From a virus: 64,000 nucleotides of DNA. Every line of letters begins with the position of its first letter. The first letter of the stretch is position 1. The position numbers and the translations under genes are program-made. The notes beneath the pieces are model-generated. The model was given only the letters and a program-made list of their open reading frames with translations, did no database searches and was not told where the DNA came from. The stretch lies in IMG/VR virus record IMGVR_UViG_3300005578_000001, positions 1 to 64,000 of that record; one strand, given 5' to 3'. This document shows positions 233-28,358 of the stretch, one piece after another.

Positions 233-871
233 ATTTATCACGACCTGTTATTCCCCGTGGCTGTGCGCTCAATCAGCGCTACACCAAACTGGCCTGTAGA
301 CATCGTTAAGCTTGGCGGTGGAGGCGAGCAGCGCATTCTCCTGCCCACTGACACGAAACGCGAGTACGACGCACGTCACTCTACGATCAATCAGACGCAG
401 GCGAAAGACATAGTTGAGTTCTTCAACGGGCGGCGTGGACAGCTTCACTCGTTCAAGGTCTATGACATCTTCCTACATCAAGCTACTGGAGAACCTTTCG
501 GCACAGGTGGAGGAATAGGATCGACTAATCAACTCATCTATGACGAGGGTGATAGTGCTAATAGTTACATCCGGGAGATCTACTTACCTAAATCCGGCAC
601 AGTTCAAATCTTCGCAGGCGTTACCCTCAAGACCGAGGGGGTGAACTACACGCTCAACTATAACGGCGCGAATGGGGGGTTAGTTACTTGGTTGACTTCT
701 GTATCAGGTCAGACACTCACATGGACCGGGGAGTTTTATATTCCGGTAAGATTTGACGTGGCAAGCTTGCCGGATCTGGAAGCAATTGCGCAATTGAGTA
801 GCACACAGTTCAAGGCCAGTGGACCAACCATTGGAATGACTGAGGTCGATTACCCCTCGGAGTGGATCTAG
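233..871 (+). CDS. DUF2460 distal tail protein, probable ATT start
   Basis: This is a GTA/siphovirus tail protein of the DUF2460 family, part of the distal tail below the tube. The sequence shows a GGGGEQR stretch, then a YDARHS segment and a FFNGRRGQLHSFKVYD segment, which is the family core. The first GTG (257) would cut off residues YHDLLFP, which match the usual DUF2460 beginning, and it has no ribosome site. An ATT at 233 restores them and lies 8 nt after AAAGGAG (218-224). A CTG at 245 is another option. The next gene follows directly. Confidence 0.8.
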   Translation: MYHDLLFPVAVRSISATPNWPVDIVKLGGGGEQRILLPTDTKREYDARHSTINQTQAKDIVEFFNGRRGQLHSFKVYDIFLHQATGEPFGTGGGIGSTNQLIYDEGDSANSYIREIYLPKSGTVQIFAGVTLKTEGVNYTLNYNGANGGLVTWLTSVSGQTLTWTGEFYIPVRFDVASLPDLEAIAQLSSTQFKASGPTIGMTEVDYPSEWI

Positions 872-1774
872 GTGTCTAATCTCAGGAAACCCGTAAATTA
901 CCAATCTCCCTCAGATGTTACGTCGCTAATCGGCTTTCTCTCGAAGACTGCTATTGACGGCATCTGCACCGGGGCCTACATGGTGAGTGCGATCGGAAAT
1001 ATCATTGTAGCCGTGACAGATCGCAGACGTGGTTTAATAGGCGTACCGGGTTATCCGGGAGTCACCTTCAAGCACACGATCGGACTAACAGCCTCACGAG
1101 TCGAATATCCATCAGGCACAGATGCCGCAAACCTCGAAGCGGATTTCTTTGTGAATAGCGAAGGGTTAACAGAAGCCGACATTGAAGCAGGCAAGTGGGA
1201 TCACGGTTCCTTTACTGTGTTCGTTACTAACGCGAATGCCTTGCACATGGGCCAAATGATTATTGCGCGCGGGTTCTTTGGAAAATTCGAACAACATGAC
1301 GGGATGTTTCGTGTTGAGTTGAAAGGAATCAACGAGGCGTTGAATCAGGTAATCGGGAAAGTTACAGAAGATTTGTGTGACGCGGACTATGGTGATTCCC
1401 GTTGTACGCTCAATCTTGTAGCGCGTGGAGAAGTGAAAACCGGAACCTTAACCAGCGCGACTAATCAATACACGTTTCGAGATACGTCACGAACTGAGGC
1501 GGCTGAGTACTTTGATAACGGACGTGGTTCGTTTACCTCAGGAAACAACAACGGCTTCCCTTTTCATGTTGATTCATGGAATCCGACTACAAAGGAATTC
1601 AGGTTAAGAAAAGCCATGCCCTTTCTCCCTGTTGCGGGCGATACCTATACAGTGAATCGAGGGTGTAAGAAGCGGTTGGTTGATTGTTTGGATCGGGATA
1701 ACGTAATTAACATGCGGGCACCCGGAGTTTACACCCCTACAACAGAAGACTTTTTGAGCGTCCCCAATGCCTGA
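872..1774 (+). CDS. DUF2163 / phage BR0599-type tail protein
   Basis: 300 aa with a GTG start immediately after the previous stop. The N-terminal half fits DUF2163 and the C-terminal part fits the BR0599 domain: a cysteine-bearing segment (EDLCDADYGDSRCTLN) and a final GCKKRLVDCLDRDNVINMRA region, the usual conserved C-terminus. In gene transfer agents and related phages this protein is part of the baseplate hub and sits between DUF2460 and the NlpC/P60 peptidase, exactly as here. Confidence 0.85.
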   Translation: MSNLRKPVNYQSPSDVTSLIGFLSKTAIDGICTGAYMVSAIGNIIVAVTDRRRGLIGVPGYPGVTFKHTIGLTASRVEYPSGTDAANLEADFFVNSEGLTEADIEAGKWDHGSFTVFVTNANALHMGQMIIARGFFGKFEQHDGMFRVELKGINEALNQVIGKVTEDLCDADYGDSRCTLNLVARGEVKTGTLTSATNQYTFRDTSRTEAAEYFDNGRGSFTSGNNNGFPFHVDSWNPTTKEFRLRKAMPFLPVAGDTYTVNRGCKKRLVDCLDRDNVINMRAPGVYTPTTEDFLSVPNA

Positions 1775-1791
1775 CACTGAAAGGATTCAAT

Positions 1792-2088
1792 ATGCATTCA
1801 CTGAGCCCGGTCATACCGGACAAAGAAGCTGAGGAGACGATCTACGCTAAAGATCAACCTCAATACATTTCCTTGCCCAGCGTAAAGACACCTGATGGAG
1901 TGGTGTTGACGCGCTGGAGTGTGAACGAGCAGGAAAAGCAACTCATTATTGAGCGGGGCTATATTTACTTATTGGTGAACACGTTCAATACACCGCTACA
2001 ACCCGTAATGTTAACGACAGATGTTCCTGGGGGGATGAACTTTAAGACGGCGTCTTTGGAAGAGTGGCCCACGGAGATTGATGCCTGA
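1792..2088 (+). CDS. Small conserved tail-module protein
   Basis: 98 aa, ATG start 6 nt after AAGGA. I recognise no named domain, but the core (TRWSVNEQEKQLIIERGYIYL, then LQPVML) resembles short proteins common in phage structural modules. Its place between the hub protein and the peptidase suggests a small tail-assembly role. The end overlaps the start of the peptidase gene. Confidence 0.75.
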   Translation: MHSLSPVIPDKEAEETIYAKDQPQYISLPSVKTPDGVVLTRWSVNEQEKQLIIERGYIYLLVNTFNTPLQPVMLTTDVPGGMNFKTASLEEWPTEIDA

Positions 2089-2542
2089 GATAAATTTCCA
2101 AGCAATGGTCACAGAAGCCCGTGCTCTTGTCGGAGAGACTCGCTGGCGTCATCAGGGACGTGATCCACGGGTTGGCCTCGATTGTATTGGCCTGCCACGC
2201 TGGTTATACGTGCAGCAGCTTGGCGAATTGCCGGAAGCGCTTGAGGCAGAGTTCAATGCCTATCACCGCAGGCCTGATGGTCAGAAGCTTTTGCAAACTA
2301 TCCGTGACTGGTTTGATGAAGTACCACGTGAGGCAATGCAGGCAGGAGATCTGGTGGTTATCTATGATCGCAGAAACCCACAACACATCGCCGTGGCGTG
2401 TGATAACGAGTTCGTAGTCGAAGCTTACGCAAGTGGACGCAATATGAAGATCGTTTACTGGAAGCTTGGCGTCTGGCGTGAACTGGCAGGAGTGTTCCGC
2501 TATCCGACTGAAAGTGACAAGGCCTTAAAATGGCTGGATTAA
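2081..2542 (+). CDS. NlpC/P60-family tail peptidase
   Basis: 153 aa. An ATG at 2081 after ACGGAG is preferred over the TTG at 2078. The GLDCIGL motif holds the catalytic cysteine (Cys35), and the NPQHIAV segment holds the catalytic histidine after a GDLVV strand, the order expected of NlpC/P60 cysteine peptidases. Tail-tip peptidases of this type cut peptidoglycan cross-links during DNA entry. It corresponds to the peptidase of GTA-like tail clusters. Its stop codon shares TTAA with the stop of the antisense HNH gene. Confidence 0.85.
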   Translation: MPEINFQAMVTEARALVGETRWRHQGRDPRVGLDCIGLPRWLYVQQLGELPEALEAEFNAYHRRPDGQKLLQTIRDWFDEVPREAMQAGDLVVIYDRRNPQHIAVACDNEFVVEAYASGRNMKIVYWKLGVWRELAGVFRYPTESDKALKWLD

Positions 2543-3132
2543 GACTTGGGCTCGTGGATTTTAATCCCGCTTATGGCGGTCAGATCAAGATCCGTCAGCG
2601 CCACGCCGAGACCCTTGCTTTCCGGCGCAACGCCAGCTGCGCGCATGTAAATGTCCTGTACGACTGTAGAGAGTTTCCTGACTTGATGTGGACACCCTCC
2701 GTGGTAACTTTTAGCTTGATGGCAATTAGCGCAAAGCAACTGCAGATCGCCTTTGGGGTAGCCCTGCCGTCGAATGAAATAGCTAAAACTGTTCGCACGG
2801 CCCACTTGAGCACGGTGCTGGTTGCCGTCTTCGTTCGTATGATCGAGATTAAGAAATTTTACTTCTGTTTCACCGCAGCACACACATTTGCCGCCATATG
2901 CGGCAATCATTTCCAAGCGGTTCTGGCGATGCCGCTCTCGTGTTTTTCGGAGTTCATCTTGATAAGAGTCTCCCGTAGGCTTTGCGCCACCATAGCCATT
3001 GGACTTTTTAATCCCTCGGCATGTTTTACAGGGTTCCCTGAAGCCACTCTTACGGCGATTGTCTCTCAAAAAGTATTGAGCATCCGCAGGTTTCTCTGCC
3101 CCGCATTTCCCACAAGTAATGGTTGGTTGCAT
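2539..3132 (-). CDS. Free-standing HNH endonuclease, antisense in the tail operon
   Basis: 197 aa. It has an N-terminal zinc ribbon (CGKCGAEK ... CKTCRG), a basic linker, and a C-terminal HNH region with CVCCGE, NLDHTNEDGNQHR and LLCANCHQAKSYHGG. This form is typical of mobile homing-type endonucleases. It is the only leftward gene within the tail module. Its stop codon overlaps the peptidase stop in a shared TTAA, and its start lies 41 bp before the next tail gene. That suggests an insertion that left the operon intact. Confidence 0.85.
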   Translation of the reverse strand: MQPTITCGKCGAEKPADAQYFLRDNRRKSGFREPCKTCRGIKKSNGYGGAKPTGDSYQDELRKTRERHRQNRLEMIAAYGGKCVCCGETEVKFLNLDHTNEDGNQHRAQVGRANSFSYFIRRQGYPKGDLQLLCANCHQAKSYHGGCPHQVRKLSTVVQDIYMRAAGVAPESKGLGVALTDLDLTAISGIKIHEPKS

Positions 3133-3173
3133 GGCGTTATGATAACACCTTACGCCACTAGGAGCATAGCTTA

Positions 3174-6100
3174 ATGTGCGCTCAAGTGGCCATCAGCCTT
3201 GCCGTGGCGGGCGCTACCACCGCAGCCCAGCTTCTCTTTGCGCCTAAGCCTAAGAAGCCTGCGCCGATCGATCGTGGCAAGCTTGATGATGCGCGATTTT
3301 CAATCCCCGCATTAGGCGCGGCGATTCCGAAAGGCTGGGGTACTTTTCGCTGTGCTCCGATCTGGATAGACCACGTTCCCACCATCCACACTGTTCAGGT
3401 TACAGAAGGACAATCAGGCGGCAAGGGGGGCTCGCCAACGCCTCCGACCGCGGATGAACGCAAACACATCTACACAAAGTCGGTGATTGGGGTCTTTCAC
3501 AACGGCCCTATCTTCAAAGGCGTCTCCAAGATGTGGTTTGGCGAGAAGCTTGTCTATAACTCTAATCTCGCCACCAACGAAGCTGATACCGCAACCCTGC
3601 GCGGTGAGGCAGAACATGGAGTACTAAGTGGCGGGGCGTCGGTGGTCACGCAGGCTGAATGCTCAGGTGGGCGTAAGGTAACGGGGATTGGAAGTGGTGG
3701 AGTGTGTGTGATCACTGTGGATGTGCCCACAACCGGAAGCTACGAGATTGCGTGCTTCTACACTTCAACAGTGCAGCGAACCTTTAAGATTCGGGTTAAT
3801 GGCGGGGCGCTCAATGATCTCGTTTGTCCAGCCTCGGGGGGCGCAGGTGAAGTTACCAGCGAGGTTATTACTCTTACTCTTACCGCGGGTGCAAATGCAA
3901 TTCAGTTTGAGAATTCGGGCGCTGCGTGTCCTGACCTTGACCGCATCGACGTAGCCCCAGCGCTCGTGTTCACGCCTGAGGGTGAAGACCCGCGTGGGTT
4001 TACCGGAATTATTCGTCCCGGTCGCTTTGGCCCTGACGATCCTGACTTTGCCTGGCCCGCGACAAATGAACAGCCGACGTTTAGCGAGACAACGGGTGGA
4101 ATGTCTAACGGAGGATTTATTCAGGCAAATCTTTCCGAATGGGGCAATCCGACTATCAGGTTTCACTTAGGCAGTGAACTACAGGAAGCCGATCCAATTA
4201 CTATCGCGTTGCGTGGCCTGAACCTCTCACCCGGCTATCGCGGGCTGGGAATCATAGCCATCGACAATATCCAGTTACAAAACGGGCAAATGCCGAATGT
4301 CACGCTGGAGATCCAACAGGGGGTACGTGAACTACCCGCGATCGTGGCCGATATTTACAAAGAGGTGAATGTCCCGCCTGAGTGGTTGGATTTGAGTGCC
4401 TTAGCCGGAAAGTTACTTGGAGATGAATCGGGCTTTGATCCCGGTACTTATACAGCCATCACGTGGACTGGGCTGAGTAACGCTACCCAAACAGGCGGAG
4501 GTGCGATTACCAAGACTTCGGGCACGAATAATACATGGAATGCTTATGCCAACTCAGGTGATTCCGTTTCAACGGGTACCAACGCCTCAATTCGCTTCAC
4601 CGCGGGTGCAGCGGGTACTTACATGGTGGGGTTTGCTTACACTACGACTCCCGGATCTACTCTTCCACACCCTTACGATCAGGTTCCGTTCGCGGTGGTA
4701 CTGAATAAGAATTCCAACCCCTCGCAGGAGGCCAAGAATTCGATCCAGCTCAGTCTAGGCGGGATCAATAACTCATTCGACGTAGGCATGTGGAGTGCGG
4801 GGGATAAGTTTCAGATCGAGTATCGTAATGGTCGATTCATGGCCTACCAGAATGGGTTAGCCCTAACTGGTTATATCCCTCCGGTTCCTTCTACTTTCCC
4901 GTTGAAGCCATTGTTCACGGGCTATGCGACAGGTGGTGGACCATCGGCAACTTCGTTCGCTACCGGGGCAAATATCGGCACTGAGCCTATCGTCGCCAAT
5001 GGGGGAGGATTGTTTATGGAATCCCCCGCCCCAGCCGCAGAGATGATCGCCGCCCTCATGCTGAGATTTCAATTCACTTTGCCCGAAGTTGACGGAGTAG
5101 TGAAAGCGGTGCTCAATAACGCTACTTCAGATCTGACTATCCCTTACACTGACCTGCGGGCGCACCGGGGCGAACAGCGCCCTCCTGAAGATATGATCAT
5201 CACGCGTGTTGATCCATTACAACTGGCAAAACGTACTACCGTTACTTATTCAGATCCTGCTTACTCCTATCACACGCGCACGCAATCAGAACAGAGATTA
5301 TTCGGCCCACAACAGGGAGCGCATGATGTAACTCTGCCGATGATCGAAACCGCGCAGAATATGAAGAACCTGGCGATTATTATTTCGAATCGCGAGGAGA
5401 TTGAAGGCCAGACGTACAAGTTTACGCTTGGCCCAAAGTACATGCGCATTCATCAGGGTACGGTGTTGACTATCAACGCTCGTTCCGGGGTTACACACAC
5501 AGTCAGGGTGAGAGATCTAGGGCTTGAACTTCCGGCTGGAGTAGTGGACGTAGATGCGGTCAGGCAAGATGCTTCAGTGTTCTCGGCTAACGGAACGCCG
5601 GGTGATATCGGAGTGGAGAGTCCGATTGTGCAAGTGCCGGGTAACACACTTGGAATCTTTCTCGACGCGCCCCTGATACCGCCGGATGATTCGGTGGATT
5701 TACCACAGCCAGTTTTATACATCGCCATGAGCGGTAGAGGCTCAGGTACATGGCCGGGTGGGTTCCTGTTCCGCGAGTTTCCTTTTAACTCCGGCAATTA
5801 TCAATTATTAACCAGCACGGATAAACCAGCCCTGACTGGAATCACTGCCGGGACATTGGGGAACCACGCAGATCTAACCGTGCTCGATACTGTAAACTCA
5901 GTGGCAATAAACTTCTATGGTCTAACCAGTCTGGAAAGCGTTACGGAGGCAGAGTTAATCGCCAACCCGCGCCTCAATCTGGTCGCTATCAAGGGCGCCA
6001 GCGGCGACTTTGAATACTTACAATTCCAGACTGCGACGCCGGGCGTGGCCGTAGCCCCTTATGTCTCGCGTTATACGATCAGTAACCTGTTGCGTGGGCG

Positions 6101-7190
6101 CTTCAATACCGGAACTGCGGTTAGCGATCACACTGGAACAGATGAGGTGGTAATTATGAATAGTGCTGTGATGGGAATCCTGATGTCAACCGCGCTCTTA
6201 GGCGTGAGTTGTAATTATAAATTTGTGACGGTAGGCCAGCAGCCGGATCAGATTACTGAACAGGCGTTCACCTGGCGTGGAATAGCCTTGAAACCTTACC
6301 CACCTGATAGTCTCACTGCGAGTAAGGATTCAAGTGGCGACTGGCATATCTCTGCCGTGGGCCATCCGCGTGAGGCAGAGAAGCCGGAGACATACATCGC
6401 TCGTATTCGCCGCGCTTCCGACGCAATGTTGATGCGGGATATTCCTATTACACCGGGCGTGCGTATGGCCGCGATACTTGATCATATTATTCACGCCAGC
6501 GGCGGCGGGACTTATTCAGGCTCAACACATGCGGCCATCAATCACAATAACGCGACCGGAGAATTAAACCCGACCGCCGCCTATGTAAAGCAGCCCTTTA
6601 CTCTGGGCAGTGAAATCAATGCTCGTCTCACGATAACACCAGCACCAGTGCCATATCTCACAGGTAATGTTAAGCTGAGTTTTGGCCCTTCGGATTTCAC
6701 CGATCCATACGGCACCGTAACAGGCGCGACCCTGACAACCAAAAACGATAACAGTACTACGCTAACACATATTCAGGTATTCGACTGGTCAACCAGCCAG
6801 TTTGCAGCATTTGATTTGCCCACAGTCGGGGGTGTTGTATTCGTGCGTATTGTCTGGTCGGGAACTGAAATCCGCTGGCAGTTTTCAGGTTCTCCAATTA
6901 ACGCGGCGGCTGCGCCTAACGTAATCTTAAAAGATGTTCCGACAGTGGGAGATTCCACGTTCCTTCGCCTATCGATGCTTAACGGCGGGCCCAGTGGCGC
7001 AAGCGCCGTCAAGGTGGAGAACATTACTATCGGCGGGCTGACAACGCCGCAGACGATCTACAGTCTGCCGCAACAGCAAAACGACAATAGCGGCTCCGGT
7101 ATCGCCACCAGTAATCTTGACGTAGAGCTGTGGCAGGTATCACGCTACCCGCCGGACTTCAAAGGCTTCTCAGTAAGGAAAGTTTTCTAG
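3174..7190 (+). CDS. Tail-tip / host-specificity protein with inserted carbohydrate-binding module
   Basis: 1338 aa, the largest protein here, in the position of the GTA phage-tail_3 or lambda J-like hub protein. The N-terminus begins with a hydrophobic segment followed by KPKKPAPIDR. Residues ~141-262 look like a CBM6/CBM35 beta-sandwich: GEAEHGVLSGG, a SGGVCVITVDVPTTGSYE strand, RVNGG and a PDLDRIDV end. Further Gly/Thr-rich beta domains lie near 425-580 and in the last ~250 residues. The central 700-1000 region keeps the usual hub core. It probably joins tail end to cell envelope, with the sugar-binding module giving adhesion (inference). Confidence 0.8.
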   Translation: MCAQVAISLAVAGATTAAQLLFAPKPKKPAPIDRGKLDDARFSIPALGAAIPKGWGTFRCAPIWIDHVPTIHTVQVTEGQSGGKGGSPTPPTADERKHIYTKSVIGVFHNGPIFKGVSKMWFGEKLVYNSNLATNEADTATLRGEAEHGVLSGGASVVTQAECSGGRKVTGIGSGGVCVITVDVPTTGSYEIACFYTSTVQRTFKIRVNGGALNDLVCPASGGAGEVTSEVITLTLTAGANAIQFENSGAACPDLDRIDVAPALVFTPEGEDPRGFTGIIRPGRFGPDDPDFAWPATNEQPTFSETTGGMSNGGFIQANLSEWGNPTIRFHLGSELQEADPITIALRGLNLSPGYRGLGIIAIDNIQLQNGQMPNVTLEIQQGVRELPAIVADIYKEVNVPPEWLDLSALAGKLLGDESGFDPGTYTAITWTGLSNATQTGGGAITKTSGTNNTWNAYANSGDSVSTGTNASIRFTAGAAGTYMVGFAYTTTPGSTLPHPYDQVPFAVVLNKNSNPSQEAKNSIQLSLGGINNSFDVGMWSAGDKFQIEYRNGRFMAYQNGLALTGYIPPVPSTFPLKPLFTGYATGGGPSATSFATGANIGTEPIVANGGGLFMESPAPAAEMIAALMLRFQFTLPEVDGVVKAVLNNATSDLTIPYTDLRAHRGEQRPPEDMIITRVDPLQLAKRTTVTYSDPAYSYHTRTQSEQRLFGPQQGAHDVTLPMIETAQNMKNLAIIISNREEIEGQTYKFTLGPKYMRIHQGTVLTINARSGVTHTVRVRDLGLELPAGVVDVDAVRQDASVFSANGTPGDIGVESPIVQVPGNTLGIFLDAPLIPPDDSVDLPQPVLYIAMSGRGSGTWPGGFLFREFPFNSGNYQLLTSTDKPALTGITAGTLGNHADLTVLDTVNSVAINFYGLTSLESVTEAELIANPRLNLVAIKGASGDFEYLQFQTATPGVAVAPYVSRYTISNLLRGRFNTGTAVSDHTGTDEVVIMNSAVMGILMSTALLGVSCNYKFVTVGQQPDQITEQAFTWRGIALKPYPPDSLTASKDSSGDWHISAVGHPREAEKPETYIARIRRASDAMLMRDIPITPGVRMAAILDHIIHASGGGTYSGSTHAAINHNNATGELNPTAAYVKQPFTLGSEINARLTITPAPVPYLTGNVKLSFGPSDFTDPYGTVTGATLTTKNDNSTTLTHIQVFDWSTSQFAAFDLPTVGGVVFVRIVWSGTEIRWQFSGSPINAAAAPNVILKDVPTVGDSTFLRLSMLNGGPSGASAVKVENITIGGLTTPQTIYSLPQQQNDNSGSGIATSNLDVELWQVSRYPPDFKGFSVRKVF

Positions 7191-21609: not shown

Positions 21610-21618
21610 CAGTTTCGG
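21610..21618. repeat. Target site duplication, left copy
   Basis: CAGTTTCGG lies directly outside the left inverted repeat. An exact copy lies directly outside the right one at 27882-27890. A 9-bp duplication is the length usual for IS1-family transposition. Confidence 0.85.
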
Positions 21619-21636
21619 GGTAGTGTCCTAATCTGA
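21619..21636 (+). repeat. Left terminal inverted repeat
   Basis: 18 bp identical to the complement of 27864-27881. Two of the next three bases also match. A related copy (14 of 16) occurs inside at 22090-22105 in the same orientation. Confidence 0.85.
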
Positions 21637-21678
21637 GATTCAGACTTTATTTTATAGGCCGGGGGGAGCCAATAGTGA

Positions 21679-22068
21679 TTAGGGCGGGCAGTTACACCCG
21701 TCCTCACAGGTCCGAGTCGAAGGGTCGTATTTTGCGCAGAGCCCTTCCAGGCCATCTAAATGACATGCGCAGGGCGCCGTCCCAACCCGGGCGACAAAAC
21801 TCAACTGCTGAGCGGCCTTCTCGAGAGTGTAGCCCTCGAGAGTCCCGGTGGCTTGCAGCCACAAGCCTTTGGCTTTCGCGTCCGATTTCACGTGAATCGG
21901 TACGCGATGGTAGCCCTCAGGGATGGGCCGCGTGAAGTCAGCGTCAACCCTCAGCGCCCGTTCGACGACGACATTTGCTGCTGCATCGGCTGGCGTTCTT
22001 TGTAGTGTCGCGAAGGCCACGACACCGAAAACCGCCATTGCACATGTAATAAAAAGGATCTTTCTCAT
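21679..22068 (-). CDS. Exported cysteine-rich protein (transposon cargo)
   Basis: 129 aa, ATG 8 nt after AAGGAG. A signal peptide covers residues 1-~30 (KILFITCAMAVFGVVAFATL). The mature part is small and ends in a Cys-rich tail (CACHLDGLEGLCAKYD ... CEDGCNCPP). No family was recognised. It lies between the element's end and an internal end-like repeat, and may have been added separately. Confidence 0.65.
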   Translation of the reverse strand: MRKILFITCAMAVFGVVAFATLQRTPADAAANVVVERALRVDADFTRPIPEGYHRVPIHVKSDAKAKGLWLQATGTLEGYTLEKAAQQLSFVARVGTAPCACHLDGLEGLCAKYDPSTRTCEDGCNCPP

Positions 22069-22089
22069 CTTTATATCTCCTTGATTTGT

Positions 22090-22105
22090 GGTAGTGTTCT
22101 AATTT
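22090..22105 (+). repeat. Internal copy of the transposon end
   Basis: GGTAGTGTTCTAATTT matches the first 16 bp of the left end at 14 positions and has the same orientation. It could be an older or alternative left end 471 bp inside the element. Confidence 0.5.
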
Positions 22106-22127
22106 CCCACTTCTGCATATAGCCCCC

Positions 22128-22970
22128 TTATCGAGCGTGGAATTTATTCTCCGTGGGTGTCGGCTCGGTTGGTTGAGGTATGGTATCGGAGGGGGCGGGC
22201 GGTAACACTGGCGTCGTATTGATCCTTAACTGCTTAGGCATTTCAGCCTCCATCTCAGCTAACGCTTGCAAATGTGTATCAACTTCGGGCTTAGCTAGCT
22301 CGTAGCATTTCCACTTCGATTTCTCTTTGCTCAAACAAACTAACTGTATGTCGCCACCAACCCCTCCGGGCGAACTTCTACTCACCTCAGATAGTGTCCA
22401 AATACATGCCAACTGACCGTCCGTGAGAGTGGGTAAACCAGTAGGCCAAAAAATGCGTCGGATGAAAGCCAAGAACGGATCTGCTTGGGGCTGTCCGCTT
22501 CCGATTGCGACAAACGGCAAGTTCTCCGATACTTCCTCAGCGGCGCATTGATGCGAGAAAGTTACTAAGTGCGGCTCATCGTTAATCTCAAACGCCACGG
22601 CTGTTGAATGAGCGCACTGCATGATTGCTGCCTGTTGGCCTATCACACCAACGGTTGCTCCAGCGCGTTGCCAACAAAGCTCCGCATGTTTCCAAAATCG
22701 TTGCGTGAGGTCGGTCTTTGCGGCGGCAACTGATTTCCATTTCACCTGTTGACCATTCTGAGCTAGATACGCATCAATCTCCCCGCTATAGTCCTGCCCT
22801 AAACCGATCGGCCCAGACACGCCTATAACGATCCGATTGTTAGCGATATGTAGCTTAGTGACGGTATCTTGACTGATGGTGCTCTGGCCCATAGCCGTAG
22901 CGTAGGTGGCTTTCGAGTCCGCACCAAGCACGATTCCGTCAGAGCATTTAACGCCAACGATGAGAGTCAT
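22128..22970 (-). CDS. Proteasome-like Ntn hydrolase (transposon cargo)
   Basis: 280 aa. It starts MTLIVGVKCSDGIVLGADSKAT, the beta-type proteasome/HslV fold start. After Met removal Thr becomes residue 1 and Asp falls at 17, as in active proteasome subunits. A Lys at 39 (TVTKLHI) probably replaces the usual Lys33. GVSGPIG and GGVGGDIQLVCL further match the fold. The last ~35 residues are Pro-rich. It shares one base with the stop of the upstream gene (TAATG), so the two are coupled. Substrate and ring formation are unknown. Confidence 0.75.
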   Translation of the reverse strand: MTLIVGVKCSDGIVLGADSKATYATAMGQSTISQDTVTKLHIANNRIVIGVSGPIGLGQDYSGEIDAYLAQNGQQVKWKSVAAAKTDLTQRFWKHAELCWQRAGATVGVIGQQAAIMQCAHSTAVAFEINDEPHLVTFSHQCAAEEVSENLPFVAIGSGQPQADPFLAFIRRIFWPTGLPTLTDGQLACIWTLSEVSRSSPGGVGGDIQLVCLSKEKSKWKCYELAKPEVDTHLQALAEMEAEMPKQLRINTTPVLPPAPSDTIPQPTEPTPTENKFHAR

Positions 22971-23404
22971 TAGCCAACAAAAACGCTCTTAGCTTTATAT
23001 TGTGGGTATGCCCTATAGATAGCGGACAGCAGTTGTGCAAACGAGAGGCTTTGTACCCATTTGACGACCTTCGTAATGTAAGCCGACATCCGCTCACTAA
23101 TTTCAGTCTTGCGTACATACTCCGCAAGGTCTTGACCCGCGGACGTGATCGTATAATATGCCCAGCCCTTATTAGCCACCTGAACGCTCTGAACAAGGTC
23201 GCTGTAAATCAGAGATTCGGCGTCTTTGTACACGCGCGGATCAAATGGTCCATAATTGTAAGGAACAAACTCGTAGTAGTTATCGCCAACTTCATCCGGT
23301 AGATTCTGACCTATAAGGAATAAAACCTTTTGAAGCTGAACAGGCGATAACCCGGCTGGTCCAGCCTGATAAATCACTAATAGCGGCCAATGTCTACGAT
23401 CCAT
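22970..23404 (-). CDS. SocA/Panacea-like protein (transposon cargo)
   Basis: 144 aa from the ATG at 23404, 4 nt after GGAGGG. The layout GLSPVQLQKVLFLIGQNLP ... YYEFVPYNYGPFDPRVYKDAE ... YYTITSAGQDLAEYV resembles the SocA/Panacea (DUF4065) group, in which an antitoxin role is known for several members. I place it there on pattern only. It is the first gene of a two-gene unit with the Ntn hydrolase. Confidence 0.6.
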   Translation of the reverse strand: MDRRHWPLLVIYQAGPAGLSPVQLQKVLFLIGQNLPDEVGDNYYEFVPYNYGPFDPRVYKDAESLIYSDLVQSVQVANKGWAYYTITSAGQDLAEYVRKTEISERMSAYITKVVKWVQSLSFAQLLSAIYRAYPQYKAKSVFVG

Positions 23405-23570
23405 TACACCCTCCAATAGTTAGAGTACCGCGTGGATTTTTAAAAGTTAAGGCCGCACGCGCGGTTACGTGGCGTTGCAGGGCTGGAAAATCAGACGGAG
23501 GTATAAACAGTGTTTAAATGGCAACTGTGACCTACCCTATCATTGATACCGTCGAACAGCAAGAAAATAA

Positions 23571-23585
23571 TTTCGTAGTACGAAA
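23571..23585. promoter_or_regulatory. Palindromic operator upstream of the transposase
   Basis: TTTCGTA-G-TACGAAA, a perfect 7-1-7 palindrome just before the promoter of the transposase unit. A second, imperfect GTAGTAC site overlaps the -10 box. The ribbon-helix-helix protein of the same unit is a possible binder (inference). Confidence 0.5.
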
Positions 23586-23592
23586 ATAGTTG

Positions 23593-23621
23593 TAGACAGA
23601 TTATGGTTTCCGTAGTACAGT
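23593..23621 (+). promoter_or_regulatory. Promoter of the transposase unit
   Basis: TAGACA (23593-23598), 17 bp, TACAGT (23616-23621). The ATG follows 22 nt later with GGAGA as ribosome site. The -10 region contains GTAGTACAGTA, also present at 53249-53259. Confidence 0.55.
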
Positions 23622-23643
23622 ATTTCCACTGGAGACGGAAACA

Positions 23644-24483
23644 ATGTCTAACAACCACCTAAGCAAAGACAAACAGATTGCAGTTACGGAAGCACTAGCC
23701 GAAGGTAATTCGATCCGGTCGATAGAGAGAATGACCGGAATTCATCGTGACACGATCATGCGCTTAGGTGTTCGCGTTGGTCAAGGCTGTGCTGAATTGT
23801 TGGATCAGAAGATGCGCAACCTCGATTGCAACCGCATCGAGCTGGATGAAATTTGGGGATTTATTGGCAAGAAGGTCCGTCACCTGCGTGAAGATGACGA
23901 TCCGACATTTGGCGACGTTTGGACCTACTGCGCGATTGATGCTGAGACTAAGCTTGTGCCTTCGTACAAGGTTGCCAGCAAGCGCAATCTACCCAACACA
24001 ATCGATTTTATCAGCGACCTTAAAGCGCGGATGAACAATCGCATTCAGATCTCGTCAGATGCGATGCTCTCTTATGAAGAAGCTATCGACACGGTGTTCG
24101 GGATGGATGTCGATTATGCGCAGATTGTAAAAACCTACGGCACAGACGAAAGTAAGTACAGCACACCAGAACGTAAGTATTCCCCTTCGCGTATCACGGA
24201 CAGTGAGAAGATCTGGAAGATGGGCCAGCCCGAAGCGCGCTACGTTTCAACTAGCTACGTTGAGCGCTTGAATGCGTCTACCCGCTTGCACGTTAAGCGT
24301 CTCAATCGTCTTACGCTCGCGTTCAGTAAGAAGCTGGAAAACTTCGAGGCTGCGGTTTCCCTTCACTTCGCGGCGTACAATTTCGTGCGCACTCACAGCG
24401 CGGTGAAGATGACGCCCGCGATGGCAGCCGGAGTCACGCGTAACTTCTGGTCCTATGGCGATCTAGTCGAGGCAGTTCTATGA
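23644..24483 (+). CDS. IS1-like DDE transposase
   Basis: 279 aa. An N-terminal helix-turn-helix (SIRSIERMTGIHRDTIMRLG) precedes a DDE catalytic domain with LDEIW (Asp68), SSDAML (Asp139) and TSYVERLN (Glu207), the InsB/COG1662 layout. The following FSKKLENFEAAVSLHFAAYNFVR ... TPAMAAGV is also typical. The 9-bp target duplication fits IS1-family chemistry. The start overlaps nothing upstream; the end overlaps the next gene by 4 nt. Confidence 0.85.
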   Translation: MSNNHLSKDKQIAVTEALAEGNSIRSIERMTGIHRDTIMRLGVRVGQGCAELLDQKMRNLDCNRIELDEIWGFIGKKVRHLREDDDPTFGDVWTYCAIDAETKLVPSYKVASKRNLPNTIDFISDLKARMNNRIQISSDAMLSYEEAIDTVFGMDVDYAQIVKTYGTDESKYSTPERKYSPSRITDSEKIWKMGQPEARYVSTSYVERLNASTRLHVKRLNRLTLAFSKKLENFEAAVSLHFAAYNFVRTHSAVKMTPAMAAGVTRNFWSYGDLVEAVL

Positions 24484-24797
24484 GCGACTATATCGCAGAA
24501 ATCCAAGCGGTCTTTTTGAAGCTACACGGATGCGATGCGCAGTACGTTGAAAGCGTCCCTGTCGTCGAGGAATTTCAGGGTGAAACGATCTGGCAAGGCG
24601 ATGTAGAGGTATTCGATCTTGTGGGCCATCCGAAAGCAAAACGTGGATATGGATGGGGATATATGACAACCGATAGCGGTGGTCGGCGCTACTTCACAGT
24701 GTTGGAACTACCGCCCGTAGATTCACCACAAACGGCAGTCAAAATAGCGATAGCGTCGGAGATTAAGAATGCGAGAGAAAAGAAAAAAGGTAGGTAG
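24480..24797 (+). CDS. Hypothetical protein coupled to the transposase
   Basis: 105 aa, ATGA overlap with the transposase. Alpha/beta composition with a central GYGWGYMTTDSGGRRYFTVLELPPV beta part and a final DSPQTAVKIAIASEI helix. No family was recognised. The basic C-terminus overlaps the next gene. Confidence 0.65.
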   Translation: MSDYIAEIQAVFLKLHGCDAQYVESVPVVEEFQGETIWQGDVEVFDLVGHPKAKRGYGWGYMTTDSGGRRYFTVLELPPVDSPQTAVKIAIASEIKNAREKKKGR

Positions 24798-24948
24798 GCC
24801 AAATCTGGGCAAAGACGCGAAGAATGTAGTATTGCAGAGTCGCGTACAAGAGACTGAAAAGAAGGCCTATCAGAACGCAGCGAAGTCTGCCGGAGTAGAT
24901 CTCTCAACCTGGATTCGCCAGACCTTGAATCAGGCGATCAAGGCGTGA
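24769..24948 (+). CDS. Ribbon-helix-helix DNA-binding protein
   Basis: 59 aa. After a basic start (MREKRKKVGRPNLG), the pattern VVLQSRVQETEKKAYQNAAK then GVDLSTWIRQTLNQAI is the strand-helix-helix of MetJ/Arc/CopG-type repressors. It overlaps the previous gene by 29 nt. It may autoregulate the transposase unit through the GTAGTAC palindromes. Confidence 0.65.
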   Translation: MREKRKKVGRPNLGKDAKNVVLQSRVQETEKKAYQNAAKSAGVDLSTWIRQTLNQAIKA

Positions 24949-24964
24949 TAGCTTCTACTGGTCG

Positions 24965-25053
24965 CGGAGGACATGGGAATCGAACCCCACCGCGCGAACG
25001 GACCCTTTGGATGTAAATTCCATTTACGTGCGCCAGCACAAGGGATGTCCTCC
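24965..25053 (-). tRNA. tRNA-Ser(GGA)-like gene, degenerate
   Basis: 89 nt, the size of tRNA-Ser with its long variable arm. The acceptor stem is perfect: GGAGGAC (25047-25053) with GTCCTCC (24966-24972), and the discriminator base is G, as in tRNA-Ser. A 7-nt anticodon loop ATGGAAT gives anticodon GGA after U33. The T arm GTGGG / CCCAT encloses an 8-nt loop with TTCGATT, one base too many. The D arm is poorly formed. It may be inactive, or a tRNA-like element or former attachment sequence. Confidence 0.5.
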
Positions 25054-25054
25054 G

Positions 25055-25633
25055 CTATTTCTTTACCGCCCTCGCGCGCTTAACAGGCTTCACAGGCTTC
25101 ACAGTCTTCGTCGGTTTAGCGGCGGCTAGCTGCTTACGCTTCGAACGAAGGGATTTAATTTCTTCCAACACCCCCTCGGCTGCTGCTTTAGCATGGTCAA
25201 GAAACGATGCGGTCGGAAGAATGACTGCCGGATATGGACCACGTCCGGTCATAGTTGCGAGCATCTCACGAGCAGCCCCGTACAACACAGACGGCGCATT
25301 CGCGTAAACGAGTATGAACTCATTTGTATCCGGCTCCCCCGCATGAAAATGAAAGTACCCGACCAGTGACAGGCGAAAGCTATATGGATATCGATCCTTA
25401 CGTCCTGCCGAGGCGATTGTAAGAACGTAACGAAGCCGCGAGGGGTCTTCCGTATGCCGACCGACCTCGCCGTTGACGGTGAAATCGGTCGGCTCAATAT
25501 TCCATGCTTTCTCCATCCTGTAGTGATAGCCCGAAGAAGAACCAAAAACCGTTTTCTTCTCGAACGCCTCGTTCAGCTTGAAAAAGAACTCGGCGACGTG
25601 ATAGCCCTCAAGATGTAACGGTGACGGCTCCAT
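25055..25633 (-). CDS. SecB-like chaperone of a toxin-antitoxin-chaperone operon
   Basis: 192 aa. The SecB fold shows in the strand pattern (FFFKLNEAFEKK, RYVLTIASAG, FRLSLVGYFHFH) and the diagnostic end AREMLATMTGRGPYPAVILPTASF, matching SecB's ARE ... TxRG ... P motif. A Lys/Pro-rich tail (KTVKPVKPVKRARAVKK) is extra. It directly follows the antitoxin gene. In TAC systems such a chaperone stabilises an aggregation-prone antitoxin. Confidence 0.8.
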   Translation of the reverse strand: MEPSPLHLEGYHVAEFFFKLNEAFEKKTVFGSSSGYHYRMEKAWNIEPTDFTVNGEVGRHTEDPSRLRYVLTIASAGRKDRYPYSFRLSLVGYFHFHAGEPDTNEFILVYANAPSVLYGAAREMLATMTGRGPYPAVILPTASFLDHAKAAAEGVLEEIKSLRSKRKQLAAAKPTKTVKPVKPVKRARAVKK

Positions 25634-26059
25634 TTAAGATACGTATTCCTCCTCAGTGCCGAACTTGGATCGTTCGACTGTTTTCTTTTTGTATGTGTAC
25701 TGGATATCGGCGATGCTGTGATAGTTCTCGGCATCGCTGAACTCGCGATTTTTCTTCTTAACTGTACCCGCCATAGGAACCAGCATAACGCCGCTTCCGG
25801 TAAAGAGAATTCCCGTCTTCAATCCCTTTGCCAAACGTTGTAGTGTGGGAGCGGTCGGCATTTGACCACCTTCAATTCGCGCAATCATAGGCTGGCGAAT
25901 TCCTGTGAGTGCAGCAAGAGACTGCTGGGTCAGTCCTAGTTCTTCGCGTCTCTGTGCGAGGGCAAGCGCGAAATCCATCTCTTTATCGACTTGCTCGTAC
26001 TGTTCTGCAAACTCAGGATCTTGTAGTTGCTCTTGGAGGAACTCTTTAAAAGAACTCAT
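25634..26059 (-). CDS. HigA-type antitoxin (XRE)
   Basis: 141 aa from the ATG at 26059, after AAGGAG and overlapping the toxin stop (ATGA). Residues ~37-85 form an XRE helix-turn-helix (REELGLTQQSLAALTGIRQPMIARIEGG). The last ~45 residues (KKKNREFSDAENYHSIADIQYTY...) lie where chaperone-addiction sequences sit in TAC antitoxins. Toxin-first order is that of HigBA. Confidence 0.8.
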   Translation of the reverse strand: MSSFKEFLQEQLQDPEFAEQYEQVDKEMDFALALAQRREELGLTQQSLAALTGIRQPMIARIEGGQMPTAPTLQRLAKGLKTGILFTGSGVMLVPMAGTVKKKNREFSDAENYHSIADIQYTYKKKTVERSKFGTEEEYVS

Positions 26060-26421
26060 TGTTTCTCCTTTCCGGCTTCGTTTACGAGCCAATCATCCAT
26101 CCGGTCTTCTGCCGTTTTGATGTCTACCTCGGGGAGACGTTGCGTCGTTTTTCGGATCGCGTGCACTACGATGAACGCCTGATTCTCACTACTGAAAAAG
26201 AAGAAGATCCGAAATTCATTTCCCCCGTATTCGGGACGAAGCGCCCAGATCTCGCCTCGCACCTTTTCGAGATAGTTTCTGGGGAGCTCGAACCCGTGGT
26301 CTTCCAGCATCCCTATGTACTTGGCGCATTTAGCGCGTTCGCCGTGCGATAACTCTCGAAGAAATCTTGCAACCGGCTTTTTACCCGCGAGATTCTCGTA
26401 GAAATTTGCGTCCCAAGACAT
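26056..26421 (-). CDS. HigB/RelE-family toxin
   Basis: 121 aa from MSWDANFYEN. The pattern VARFLREL, LPRNYLEKVRGEIWALRPEYGGNEFRIFFFF and AFIVVHAIRKTTQRLP is that of the phage-derived Gp49/HigB mRNA-interferase family. The start lies 10 nt after the -10 box, so the leader is nearly absent. It is coupled to the antitoxin by 4 nt. Confidence 0.8.
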   Translation of the reverse strand: MSWDANFYENLAGKKPVARFLRELSHGERAKCAKYIGMLEDHGFELPRNYLEKVRGEIWALRPEYGGNEFRIFFFFSSENQAFIVVHAIRKTTQRLPEVDIKTAEDRMDDWLVNEAGKEKQ

Positions 26422-26431
26422 GCGGGAGAGC

Positions 26432-26459
26432 ATTATAACTCGGAAGTTATAATAGTCAA
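26432..26459 (-). promoter_or_regulatory. Promoter and operator of the TAC operon
   Basis: TTGACT (26454-26459), 16 bp, TATAAT (26432-26437). A perfect 9-4-9 palindrome, ATTATAACT ... AGTTATAAT (26432-26453), covers the spacer and -10 box. This fits autoregulation by the XRE antitoxin. Confidence 0.75.
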
Positions 26460-26545
26460 GCGCCGGGGAAAGCAAAAAGCACAATTTTCCAAAACAGATT
26501 ACTTATGGACGATCGGGCGCGGGTGTCGATTCGCGGACTGTGGTC

Positions 26546-26794
26546 CTAATTCGGTAGACCAACCCGATCATCAATCAAAACGTCCGTTGAGATTCCCGCC
26601 AGCCTTGCATATGCCAGCAAGACCATTAACGGCGGTTCCCTTCTTCCGCTCTCGAATTGTGAGATTTGCGCCGGGTAAAGCGGCGAAGCTTTATAGTTCA
26701 ACGCCTTCACCATTTCTGTTTGACTCAATCCTAAATTGGCCCGGATCTGCGCAAGCTTCTTTGCCAGCTTCTTAGGTACAGGACGCTTCGCCAT
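26546..26794 (-). CDS. XRE regulator, leftward member of a pair
   Basis: 82 aa from MAKRPVPKK, 8 nt after GGAGGG. Helix-turn-helix IRANLGLSQTEMVKAL ... PAQISQFESGRREPPL, then LLAYARLAGISTDVLIDD. It is clearly related to the rightward regulator at 27212. The two diverge around a palindromic operator, as in a phage-type switch. Confidence 0.8.
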   Translation of the reverse strand: MAKRPVPKKLAKKLAQIRANLGLSQTEMVKALNYKASPLYPAQISQFESGRREPPLMVLLAYARLAGISTDVLIDDRVGLPN

Positions 26795-26815
26795 TAGAAG
26801 CGCCCTCCGTAAGAC

Positions 26816-26844
26816 TTGCACGCGGTACTAGCAACTGCTAGTAT
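26816..26844 (+). promoter_or_regulatory. Divergent-region promoter with 8-2-8 operator
   Basis: TTGCAC (26816-26821), 17 bp, TAGTAT (26839-26844). The perfect palindrome TACTAGCA-AC-TGCTAGTA (26826-26843) overlaps the spacer and most of the -10 box. It sits between the two XRE genes and is a likely target for one or both. Confidence 0.65.
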
Positions 26845-26928
26845 CTTGTGGCTTATTCGATAGGTTGTGGTGTTCGCCCAGATATACCGGGCGAAGATCA
26901 CCTAATCATTTCCTCCGAGGATCTCAAT

Positions 26929-27210
26929 ATGGCGTATCGCAAACGAGTGTTCCTCAATCCGATCTCACTTGGCAAACCATCGTACATTCAGGCAGTCGCA
27001 GACTCCAGCCTTGAGGGTACTTATGTGCTGGGAAACTACCTCCTGATTATAGCGGACTGTCACCGCAATATCATGCTGGAGTTTTCGCTGGGTAACGAGC
27101 AGCAACGCAAGGTGAGTCTCGCCAAGATCGATAAGATGGCCCAAGTTGTCAACGAATTCAGAGACGCGGTCCACGCGGAAGCAAAACTAATCGAGGGAGC
27201 ATCCGAGTGA
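26929..27210 (+). CDS. Hypothetical protein between the XRE genes
   Basis: 93 aa from MAYRKRVFLN, 7 nt after GAGGA. Beta-rich first half (YIQAVADSSLEGTYVLGNYLLIIADC) and helical end. No family was recognised. It is transcribed with the downstream XRE gene. An 80-nt leader separates it from the promoter. Confidence 0.65.
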   Translation: MAYRKRVFLNPISLGKPSYIQAVADSSLEGTYVLGNYLLIIADCHRNIMLEFSLGNEQQRKVSLAKIDKMAQVVNEFRDAVHAEAKLIEGASE

Positions 27211-27211
27211 G

Positions 27212-27457
27212 ATGGGGAAGCGACCGCGCCGGAAGTCGAAAGACTTGCCCGCCAAGCTCCTTGCTATCCGGCAACGGCTGGAATTGAGCCAATGGGAAAT
27301 GTCGCGCTTGCTGAATTTTCTAATAACTCCCGCGCGGATAAGCGAGTGCGAACGAGGAAAACGGGAACCGAATCTGTTGGTCCTACTCGCTTACGCCCGC
27401 GCCGGAGATGTTACCGTGGACCAACTGATTGACGATGACCAAAAACTCTATTCCTGA
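27212..27457 (+). CDS. XRE regulator, rightward member of a pair
   Basis: 81 aa. IRQRLELSQWEMSRLLNF ... PARISECERGKREPNLLVLLAYARAGDVTVDQLIDDD aligns along its length with the regulator at 26546. Starts 1 nt after the preceding stop. Confidence 0.8.
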   Translation: MGKRPRRKSKDLPAKLLAIRQRLELSQWEMSRLLNFLITPARISECERGKREPNLLVLLAYARAGDVTVDQLIDDDQKLYS

Positions 27458-27492
27458 TTCTTGCTCCGCGCCGTAGTTGGGCAAGAAGACTG

Positions 27493-27531
27493 AAAGGCCG
27501 GGAATGCCCAGATCCCGGCCTTTTGGTTTTT
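27493..27531 (+). terminator. Rho-independent terminator
   Basis: An 11-bp stem AAAGGCCGGGA / TCCCGGCCTTT with a 9-nt loop, followed by TTGGTTTTT. It ends the rightward XRE unit. Confidence 0.85.
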
Positions 27532-27621
27532 GTGATGTTGGTTTACTGTTTAGGCACCTTGTAGGCGGCATGGCCCCACAAACCAGCCGCCCGTCCTTCA
27601 TCGCTTAATGGAGCACGCTTT

Positions 27622-27828
27622 ATGGCACGCATGTTAACGAGTCTTCAATGGTGGGAGATTACCGGCTACTGTGTTGCGCTAGGTCTAGTTGTTTTAGCTG
27701 CTTTAATGGATAAGATCGGCGGGCCGGACTCTGCGTCGGAACGCCTAAGCGGCATAATTGCGACTCTCGGCATCCTCGGATTCCTTGTAGTCTTCACAAT
27801 CGGTTTTGTGCTCAGGTTTGTGATCTAG
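27622..27828 (+). CDS. Two-helix membrane protein
   Basis: 68 aa, ATG 8 nt after GGAG. Two membrane segments (GYCVALGLVVLAALM and IIATLGILGFLVVFTIGFVL). No family was recognised. It is the last gene before the right end of the transposon. Confidence 0.6.
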   Translation: MARMLTSLQWWEITGYCVALGLVVLAALMDKIGGPDSASERLSGIIATLGILGFLVVFTIGFVLRFVI

Positions 27829-27863
27829 GGACAAGGGCCGTGCCAGATTTTCAATTCCAGATT

Positions 27864-27881
27864 TCAGATTAGGACACTACC
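27864..27881 (-). repeat. Right terminal inverted repeat
   Basis: Exact complement of 21619-21636. It also encodes the last residues (GSVLI) and stop of the leftward phage gene it interrupted. Confidence 0.85.
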
Positions 27882-28358
27882 CAGTTTCGGTTTCGGCAGT
27901 GACTTCACCGGGGCGAGGTCAATAGCCAGTTCTTTCTTTGCGTCCCGGCCCGCTTGACTGAGCTTAGCAGCTACTCCCATAGCATGATCGTATCGAGCCT
28001 GTCCGATGCCATCTAAGCGCTCACGTGGCACAATAGCCAAGCGCCGGAACGCGCGTCCTGTATGCCGGATTCCCTGTTTGATGTTTCGCTCCGACTCTTT
28101 CAGGCGATCAGCCGGATTGAGAAACTTCAATCCGATTCCATGGATCCACTCACTGTCGATGTCGCGATCGTTGCGGAGTCTGCGCCGCCATGCGTTCACC
28201 ACACCGTAATAGCGATTGGTTTTAGCGGGGATTTTTATTAACGCTTCGAACTCTGAGTGACGGATCACTTGATCTTCATCCGGCGTGGGAAATGCCTCTT
28301 CCAGCTTGCGCACGTCGGGGCCGTAGGGAATGCCATTTACTAACTGAGCAGGTTTCAT
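27864..28358 (-). CDS. Conserved phage protein with transposon-altered C-terminus
   Basis: 164 aa. Residues VIRHSEFEALIKIPAKTNRYYGVVNAWRRRL resemble a common phage early protein with a helix-turn-helix-like fold, of unknown function. The last codons after KPKL run into the transposon end and read GSVLI-stop. Across the duplication the uninterrupted phage sequence would read KPKLVVNE-stop. The start overlaps the upstream gene by 4 nt. Confidence 0.75.
   Translation of the reverse strand: MKPAQLVNGIPYGPDVRKLEEAFPTPDEDQVIRHSEFEALIKIPAKTNRYYGVVNAWRRRLRNDRDIDSEWIHGIGLKFLNPADRLKESERNIKQGIRHTGRAFRRLAIVPRERLDGIGQARYDHAMGVAAKLSQAGRDAKKELAIDLAPVKSLPKPKLGSVLI
27882..27890. repeat. Target site duplication, right copy
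   Basis: CAGTTTCGG, identical to 21610-21618. Confidence 0.85.

Follow-up and report, generated by a model that had tools for sequence, protein, structure and literature searches.

An IS1-like transposon with a variable cargo in a phage contig belongs to a clade with shared ends found across bacterial phyla

How does a block of toxin-antitoxin, protease and tRNA-like genes come to lie among the structural genes of a phage? The question is raised by a stretch of 64,000 nucleotides (hereafter the window, meaning the whole stretch analysed) that corresponds to positions 1 to 64,000 of the IMG/VR virus record IMGVR_UViG_3300005578_000001. A first-pass annotation had proposed that an IS1-like transposon of about 6.26 kb delivered a defence package into this genome and that it might be a new kind of element. 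Our results indicate that positions 21619-27881 are very probably an autonomous transposon that carries cargo and belongs to an IS1-like clade. The transposon with cargo in a phage thus stands, while the novelty of kind holds only in part, because the concept (transporter insertion sequence, mobile insertion cassette) is known and the element belongs to a large clade whose members share its ends.

The 6263-bp element shows the perfect 18-bp inverted ends and the exact 9-bp target duplication that had been claimed for it (Table 1). Across the 64-kb window these ends are the only inverted 18-mers, besides their own copy shifted by 1 bp, and no further match with up to two mismatches occurs in the 81.8-kb viral record; the GC content is 0.51 in the element and 0.52 in the phage. 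The surrounding genes support a phage identity, including tail, terminase, portal, scaffold and major head genes, as well as thymidylate synthase, polymerase clamp, exonuclease and NinG-like nuclease. The product of the phage gene struck by the insertion now terminates in PKLGSVLI*, and in PKLVVNE* when the flanks are read across, so that the insertion costs it about four C-terminal residues; this position, at the extreme 3' end of the gene, would have made the element tolerable to the phage. The search for a related phage with an empty site, advised by the first-pass annotation, led to L213, a phage contig with the only close viral relative of the struck gene (87% amino-acid identity), which is uninterrupted and whose alignment crosses the insertion point up to the stop codon. 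The element is real and recently inserted.

IMG/VR contigs are metagenome-derived, and a bacterial transposon could have been wrongly joined to a phage contig during assembly. Against such a chimera speak the exact duplication at both junctions, the uninterrupted relative L213 and a comparable insertion in a cultured phage. A tblastn search of 50,697 phage records retrieved one relative, with 32% identity, in the Brevundimonas jumbo phage vB_BpoS-Gurke (L208, ON529850.1), an isolate reported at 98.5-fold coverage (PMC10070969). Positions 480-7133 of Gurke contain a 6654-bp transposon beside the DNA polymerase gene, with ends GGTAGTGGCACAGTTTGA matching at 18/18 positions and an 8-bp duplication, CGAGTGTG. 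Its cargo is an arsenic-resistance operon, comprising an ArsR-like regulator, ArsC, a SBF-family (Acr3-type) transporter, a GNAT protein and an ArsH-type FMN reductase; no gene is annotated across the transposon in the record, and the paper describing Gurke mentions neither transposons nor arsenic (PMC10070969). The cultured sister phage Kikimora, nearly identical to Gurke, preserves the empty site, because the joined flanks align with it at 97.5% over 1079 bp, gapless and with one copy of the target. We consequently consider a chimera exceedingly improbable.

Searching for the ends elsewhere, also advised at first pass, revealed that the window element is far from isolated. A genome scan with the transposases of the window and of the viral contig L003 detected 130 relatives, and 80 of these were retained; elements were defined by a transposase, the same ends and an exact 8- or 9-bp duplication (n=60). 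The set comprises 57 bacterial loci plus the viral contigs L003, L046 and the window, with ends GGTAGTGTCCTAATTTG in common, and the carrier phyla include Acidobacteriota, Verrucomicrobiota, Pseudomonadota, Myxococcota, Thermodesulfobacteriota, Chloroflexota, Bacteroidota and Fibrobacterota. Positions 1-17 of the ends are conserved at 80-100% on both sides, even though the transposases fall to 45-48% identity with that of the window. The target duplications are of 8 bp in 55 elements and of 9 bp in five, and lengths range from 2154 to 6263 bp (median 3.0 kb), the window element being the longest. For instance, the 3.09-kb element of L003 has a transposase 63% identical, the same ends and a different cargo, and is flanked by an 8-bp duplication. 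In 25 genomes picked for carrying a copy, the 17-bp end gave 89 matches with one mismatch allowed, versus one for the reversed control, and most of these genomes had one complete end pair each. The transposase tree places the window with L124 from Acidobacteriota (72% identity, support 100), L003 with Acidobacteriota and L046 with Verrucomicrobiota; it is a reasonable inference that the phages carrying these three elements infect the phyla of their tree neighbours. As a separate observation, the end sequence GGTAGTGTCCTAATTTGA read inward contains TAG, TAA and TGA, one per frame, and half of the 120 ends shut all three frames within 20 bp.

The core of these elements consists of up to three genes. 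As the first-pass annotation had it, the transposase of the window is of the IS1-like DDE type, exceeding the cut-off of Pfam PF03400 (DDE_Tnp_IS1; 28.0 bits, cut-off 24.1). The NCBIfam IS1 model NF033558 was matched by all 58 aligned transposases, in which the DDE residues are invariant, whereas the IS1595 model did not match the window transposase and matched 11 of the 58 relatives, more weakly than IS1. The AlphaFold2 (AF2) model of the window transposase (predicted local distance difference test, pLDDT, 90.5) has an RNase H-type DDE fold, with ISCth4, Mu and retroviral integrases as the best neighbours in PDB. The second gene, orf2, shares the bases ATGA with tnp in the window and is present in 54 of the 60 elements; its model is confident (pLDDT 90.5), but it matched nothing in Pfam or among PDB sequences, and no fold match was convincing. 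The third, the NikA-like rhh, occurs in 36 of the 60. Both are kept alongside the transposase across phyla and would probably assist or regulate transposition.

With the IS1 family, the elements share an IS1-type DDE transposase (PF03400, NF033558), ends starting with GGT and a duplication of ca. 8-9 bp, within the ca. 8-10 bp that, together with inverted ends, typify the family. They differ in having a single open reading frame (ORF) instead of the two-frame insA/insB frameshift of classical IS1, in the extra orf2 and rhh genes and in their mostly 8-bp duplications; and, unlike the compact and cargo-free IS1, the present 60 always contain cargo. The IS1 family does include single-ORF subgroups such as ISMhu11. 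Nor is this a composite transposon with two flanking insertion sequence (IS) copies, since there is one transposase and only terminal inverted repeats.

These elements might therefore be seen as ordinary transporter ISs (tIS) of the IS1 family, that is, a bare element with random neighbours and no special family, accessory genes or phage role. The concept of an IS that carries cargo is established (PMC3129680): tIS and passenger-bearing elements of the IS1595 type were described earlier (Siguier 2009, as cited in PMC3129680), and ours also have IS-like ends and one transposase around unrelated passengers that move as a unit, as seen from the empty sites in L213 and Kikimora. Moreover, plasmid relatives, with diverged ends such as GGTAGTGTCTCAGTTTGA and 8-bp duplications, are annotated plainly as 'IS1 family transposase'. 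Unlike tIS and IS1595-type elements, however, the present transposases match IS1 better (58/58 versus 11/58), include phage-borne examples and are accompanied by accessory genes, orf2 and rhh, conserved across phyla; none of the 60 elements is bare, the shortest having 2154 bp around an 840-bp transposase, and tRNA-like genes recur among them (see below). We thus find it unlikely that nothing beyond an ordinary tIS is involved. A literature search for the end sequence yielded no relevant paper and three primer coincidences; the clade, along with its accessory genes, the members borne by phages and the stop-anticodon tRNA genes, appears to be undescribed in the literature searched, which did not extend to a comparison with ISfinder.

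The defence-type cargo claimed for the window was largely borne out, with a strong HigB match, a clear HTH antitoxin and a proteasome-like match (Table 1). The HigB, HigA and SecB-like genes have the arrangement of a toxin-antitoxin-chaperone operon, and it is from gene content that we assign them to the HigBA-SecB type; the SecB-like call is weak by sequence (E=0.001) and supported by operon position. The gene order is that of HigB1-HigA1-SecB-like in Mycobacterium tuberculosis, and the toxin matches the structures of HigB and HigB1, although here the operon is on a phage transposon and the similarity of the chaperone is weak. For the proteasome-like protein we found no relative in plasmids or phages and no PDB match by sequence, and the SocA/Panacea label of its neighbour is weak in Pfam (SocA_Panacea, 0.073); the two (22128-23416) might possibly form a toxin-antitoxin-like pair, as yet unstudied.

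On the other hand, we had to abandon the notion of a single, fixed defence package, because cargo differs from element to element around the conserved tnp/orf2/rhh core and the same ends elsewhere enclose a methylase, trpC, a PIN toxin, P63C, membrane proteins or a single small gene. Pfam and PADLOC comparisons of 105 cargo ORFs identified P63C (5), Panacea, DUF5343, a Tsp45I restriction enzyme, methylases, HigB and zeta toxin, and also RelA/SpoT-like, PIN and NYN proteins, a ParA-type ATPase, ClpP-like and proteasome-like proteases, RmrA-type and M78 proteins, giving the impression of a defence-biased cargo. The viral contig L046 carries indole-3-glycerol phosphate synthase (trpC; 1277-2137, minus strand). 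A membrane protein of 243-377 amino acids (aa) is the commonest cargo of acidobacterial members (10/60 elements), and is on the left side in L128, L134, L137, L143, L145, L147, L154 and L003.

Most likely, the window cargo (HigBA with SecB-like, proteasome-like with Panacea-like) would stabilise the element or arm the phage or its host against competitors. A narrower explanation, to which we give somewhat less than an even chance, is that the cargo serves the transposon alone, as a selfish addiction module, and has no role in phage defence. In known cases, HigBA-SecB and partners of the Panacea type act as post-segregational or stress modules, the carriers hold few copies, and toxin-antitoxin genes are reported to belong to transposons of the Tn3 family (PMC7157771); not all cargoes are addiction modules, however, since other members carry restriction-modification, methylase, arsenic-resistance or trpC genes.

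How might such diverse passengers be acquired? We propose that the transposase cuts at GGTAGTGTCC ends regardless of the DNA enclosed, and that it would pick up passengers by using a new end-like sequence on the far side of an adjacent gene. Second left-type ends exist inside the window element (22090) and inside L166 (8875), implying that new outer ends beyond neighbour genes are sometimes recruited and enlarge the cargo; in the window, the end at 22090 is probably an older boundary, with the outer 471 bp captured later. Loss of the transposase from a copy would in turn produce small cassettes mobilised in trans. Single-gene cassettes of 0.2-2 kb without transposase are present in many viral contigs. 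The 125 viral loci examined contained 177 end pairs, 16 of which (with the L003 element counted twice) had matching 8-9-bp duplications, and a wrong-geometry control had none. Several of these 16 lack a transposase and enclose one or two genes, including a methylase (L009), a PIN pair (L014) and small membrane proteins (L022, L077). In bacteria, L216 contains a cassette with an 8-bp duplication, and L215 and L217 are less clean. Like mobile insertion cassettes and miniature inverted-repeat elements of the MIC231 type (PMC3129680), they are copies without transposase that have the same ends and their own target duplications (L009, L010, L014, L022, L049, L077, L106, L216 and others), a description that does not apply to the window element; unlike MIC231-type cassettes, the present single-gene cassettes sit in many viral contigs. 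In L077 (1329-2414), one cassette of the family encloses a second, of 654 bp (1467-2120), which has an 8-bp duplication of its own.

Several points weigh against our interpretation of the window element and its family. The window transposase scores 43.8 bits with the NCBIfam IS1 equivalog NF033558, below its cut-off of 100. Because DNA identity at the empty site of L213 is 71-74%, the precise junction is fixed by about 14 bases and the stop codon. Most carriers are metagenome-assembled, internal ends, the whole basis of the capture model, occur in just two of the 60 elements, and the functions of the window cargo are deduced from homology.

The tRNA-like gene noted at first pass is supported by its fold, although ARAGORN misses it and Rfam tRNA-Sec gives 29.7 of 47 bits. 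It has a 9-bp acceptor, a 3-bp T stem, a long variable arm and G73, and by our reading the anticodon is UUA. A gene with the same acceptor, T stem, variable arm and G73 is found in the nearest relative, L124 (11320-11414), and both thus have the 12-bp acceptor branch split as 9+3 and the long variable arm of allo-tRNAs (Mukai 2017, as reviewed in PMC7609411). Unlike those allo-tRNAs, the present genes are tied to a defined transposon, and most other members carry short tRNA-like genes with G3:U70 instead. A search for an acceptor plus T arm, with no anticodon filter, on the plus strand and up to 420 nt upstream of tnp, gave hits in 20 of 91 transposase loci versus 2 of 1046 control segments. 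By loop reading, their anticodons are UUA (14), CUA (2), UUC (2), CAA (1) and UAC (1). The 16 with a stop anticodon (L175, L181, L196, L171, L172, L157, L152, L167, L170, L156, L184, L153, L166, L151, L158 and L188) all have A73 and G3:U70, an alanine identity element (PMC7609411). Run independently, ARAGORN assigns a stop anticodon (tta) to L166, L170 and L177, though for L156 it gives 'ttac' and for L158 Val(tac). On the transposase tree, about nine changes of this trait are seen. Separately, ARAGORN detects a tRNA-Stop(tta) in the viral contig L046 (154-229, minus strand), 0.7 kb outside the left end of the element.

Whether these genes decode is evenly balanced in our view, there being about an equal chance that they are decayed or passenger tRNAs without a decoding role, or regulatory leaders of tnp. 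C37 in the loop, unusual for a decoding tRNA, C33 in three cases and several imperfect anticodon stems fit that explanation, as do the location of some just 29-55 nt ahead of the tnp start and the report that translation in E. coli made no use of allo-tRNAs linked to a transposon ORF (PMC7609411). Yet, of the 20 hits obtained without a filter, 16 have stop anticodons, each combined with G3:U70 and A73, and the acceptor stems vary and nevertheless remain paired. It is a more doubtful proposition that this phylum-spanning family has its own natural stop-codon suppressor tRNA, such that the expression of some element or cargo gene, or of host genes that are read into the element, would depend on suppressed stops. 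Equally tentatively, the suppressors would be of alanine (G3:U70) or serine (9/3 allo-tRNA) type, identities whose synthetases ignore the anticodon; G73 and the long variable arm fit putative serine charging of the window tRNA. We looked for genes that need read-through and obtained no consistent case: both tnp and orf2 are open in essentially all elements, and the matches crossing an X were mostly antisense artefacts. The sole clean case is an in-frame TAA at ca. 8887 of L187, within an otherwise open PIN-domain gene, and no tRNA was found there.

Table 1. Coordinates of the transposon, its genes and its insertion site in the window
Feature	Position	Strand	Basis
Left target-site duplication copy CAGTTTCGG, 9 bp	21610..21618	.	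flank comparison
Left terminal inverted repeat GGTAGTGTCCTAATCTGA	21619..21636	+	18/18 match to right end
Protein, 129 aa, hydrophobic N-terminus; outside internal end at 22090	21679..22068	-	
Internal second left-type end GGTAGTGTTCTAAT, 1 mismatch in 14	22090..22103	+	
Proteasome/HslV-like N-terminal-threonine hydrolase, 280 aa	22128..22970	-	Pfam PF00227 5.7e-10
SocA/Panacea-like protein, 148 aa, adjoins proteasome-like gene	22970..23416	-	PADLOC PDC-M19A 3e-15
IS1-like DDE transposase, 279 aa, single ORF; D68, D139, E207	23644..24483	+	Pfam, NCBIfam, AF2
orf2, 105 aa, conserved accessory protein, new family	24480..24797	+	alpha-beta4-alpha predicted fold
rhh, 59 aa, NikA-like ribbon-helix-helix, third core gene	24769..24948	+	Pfam PF21983 3e-6
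tRNA-like gene, 9/3 'allo-tRNA' type, loop AUUUACA	24966..25053	-	fold reading
SecB-like chaperone	25055..25633	-	Pfam SecB 0.0012; PDB SecB 0.08
HigA-like XRE antitoxin	25634..26092	-	Pfam HTH_3 7.6e-12
HigB-like toxin (Gp49/DUF891)	26056..26484	-	Pfam Gp49 4e-21; PDB HigB 2.7e-8, HigB1 3e-4
XRE regulator	26546..26821	-	profile match
Protein, 120 aa, no assignment	26848..27210	+	
XRE-type regulator, second	27212..27457	+	profile match
Small membrane protein, 68 aa	27622..27828	+	by sequence
Right terminal inverted repeat	27864..27881	-	18/18 match to left end
Right target-site duplication copy CAGTTTCGG	27882..27890	.	
Phage gene struck by insertion; last codons run into right end	27864..28358	-	

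Ochre 9/3 allo-tRNAs have been reported before, and a link of allo-tRNAs to transposable elements or toxin-antitoxin systems was suspected (PMC7609411). The present elements supply that link between allo-tRNAs and transposons, and the earlier finding of odd allo-tRNAs beside transposon genes would be easier to understand, given that stop-anticodon tRNA genes recur here. For phages, these transposons are a concrete route by which toxin-antitoxin, restriction-modification, metal-resistance and metabolic genes enter the genome by discrete insertion, and not by recombination. Since many phyla share almost unchanged ends, a single transposase may mobilise cassettes that arose elsewhere, and GGTAGTGTCCTAATTTG together with an 8-bp duplication offers a simple handle for locating accessory modules.

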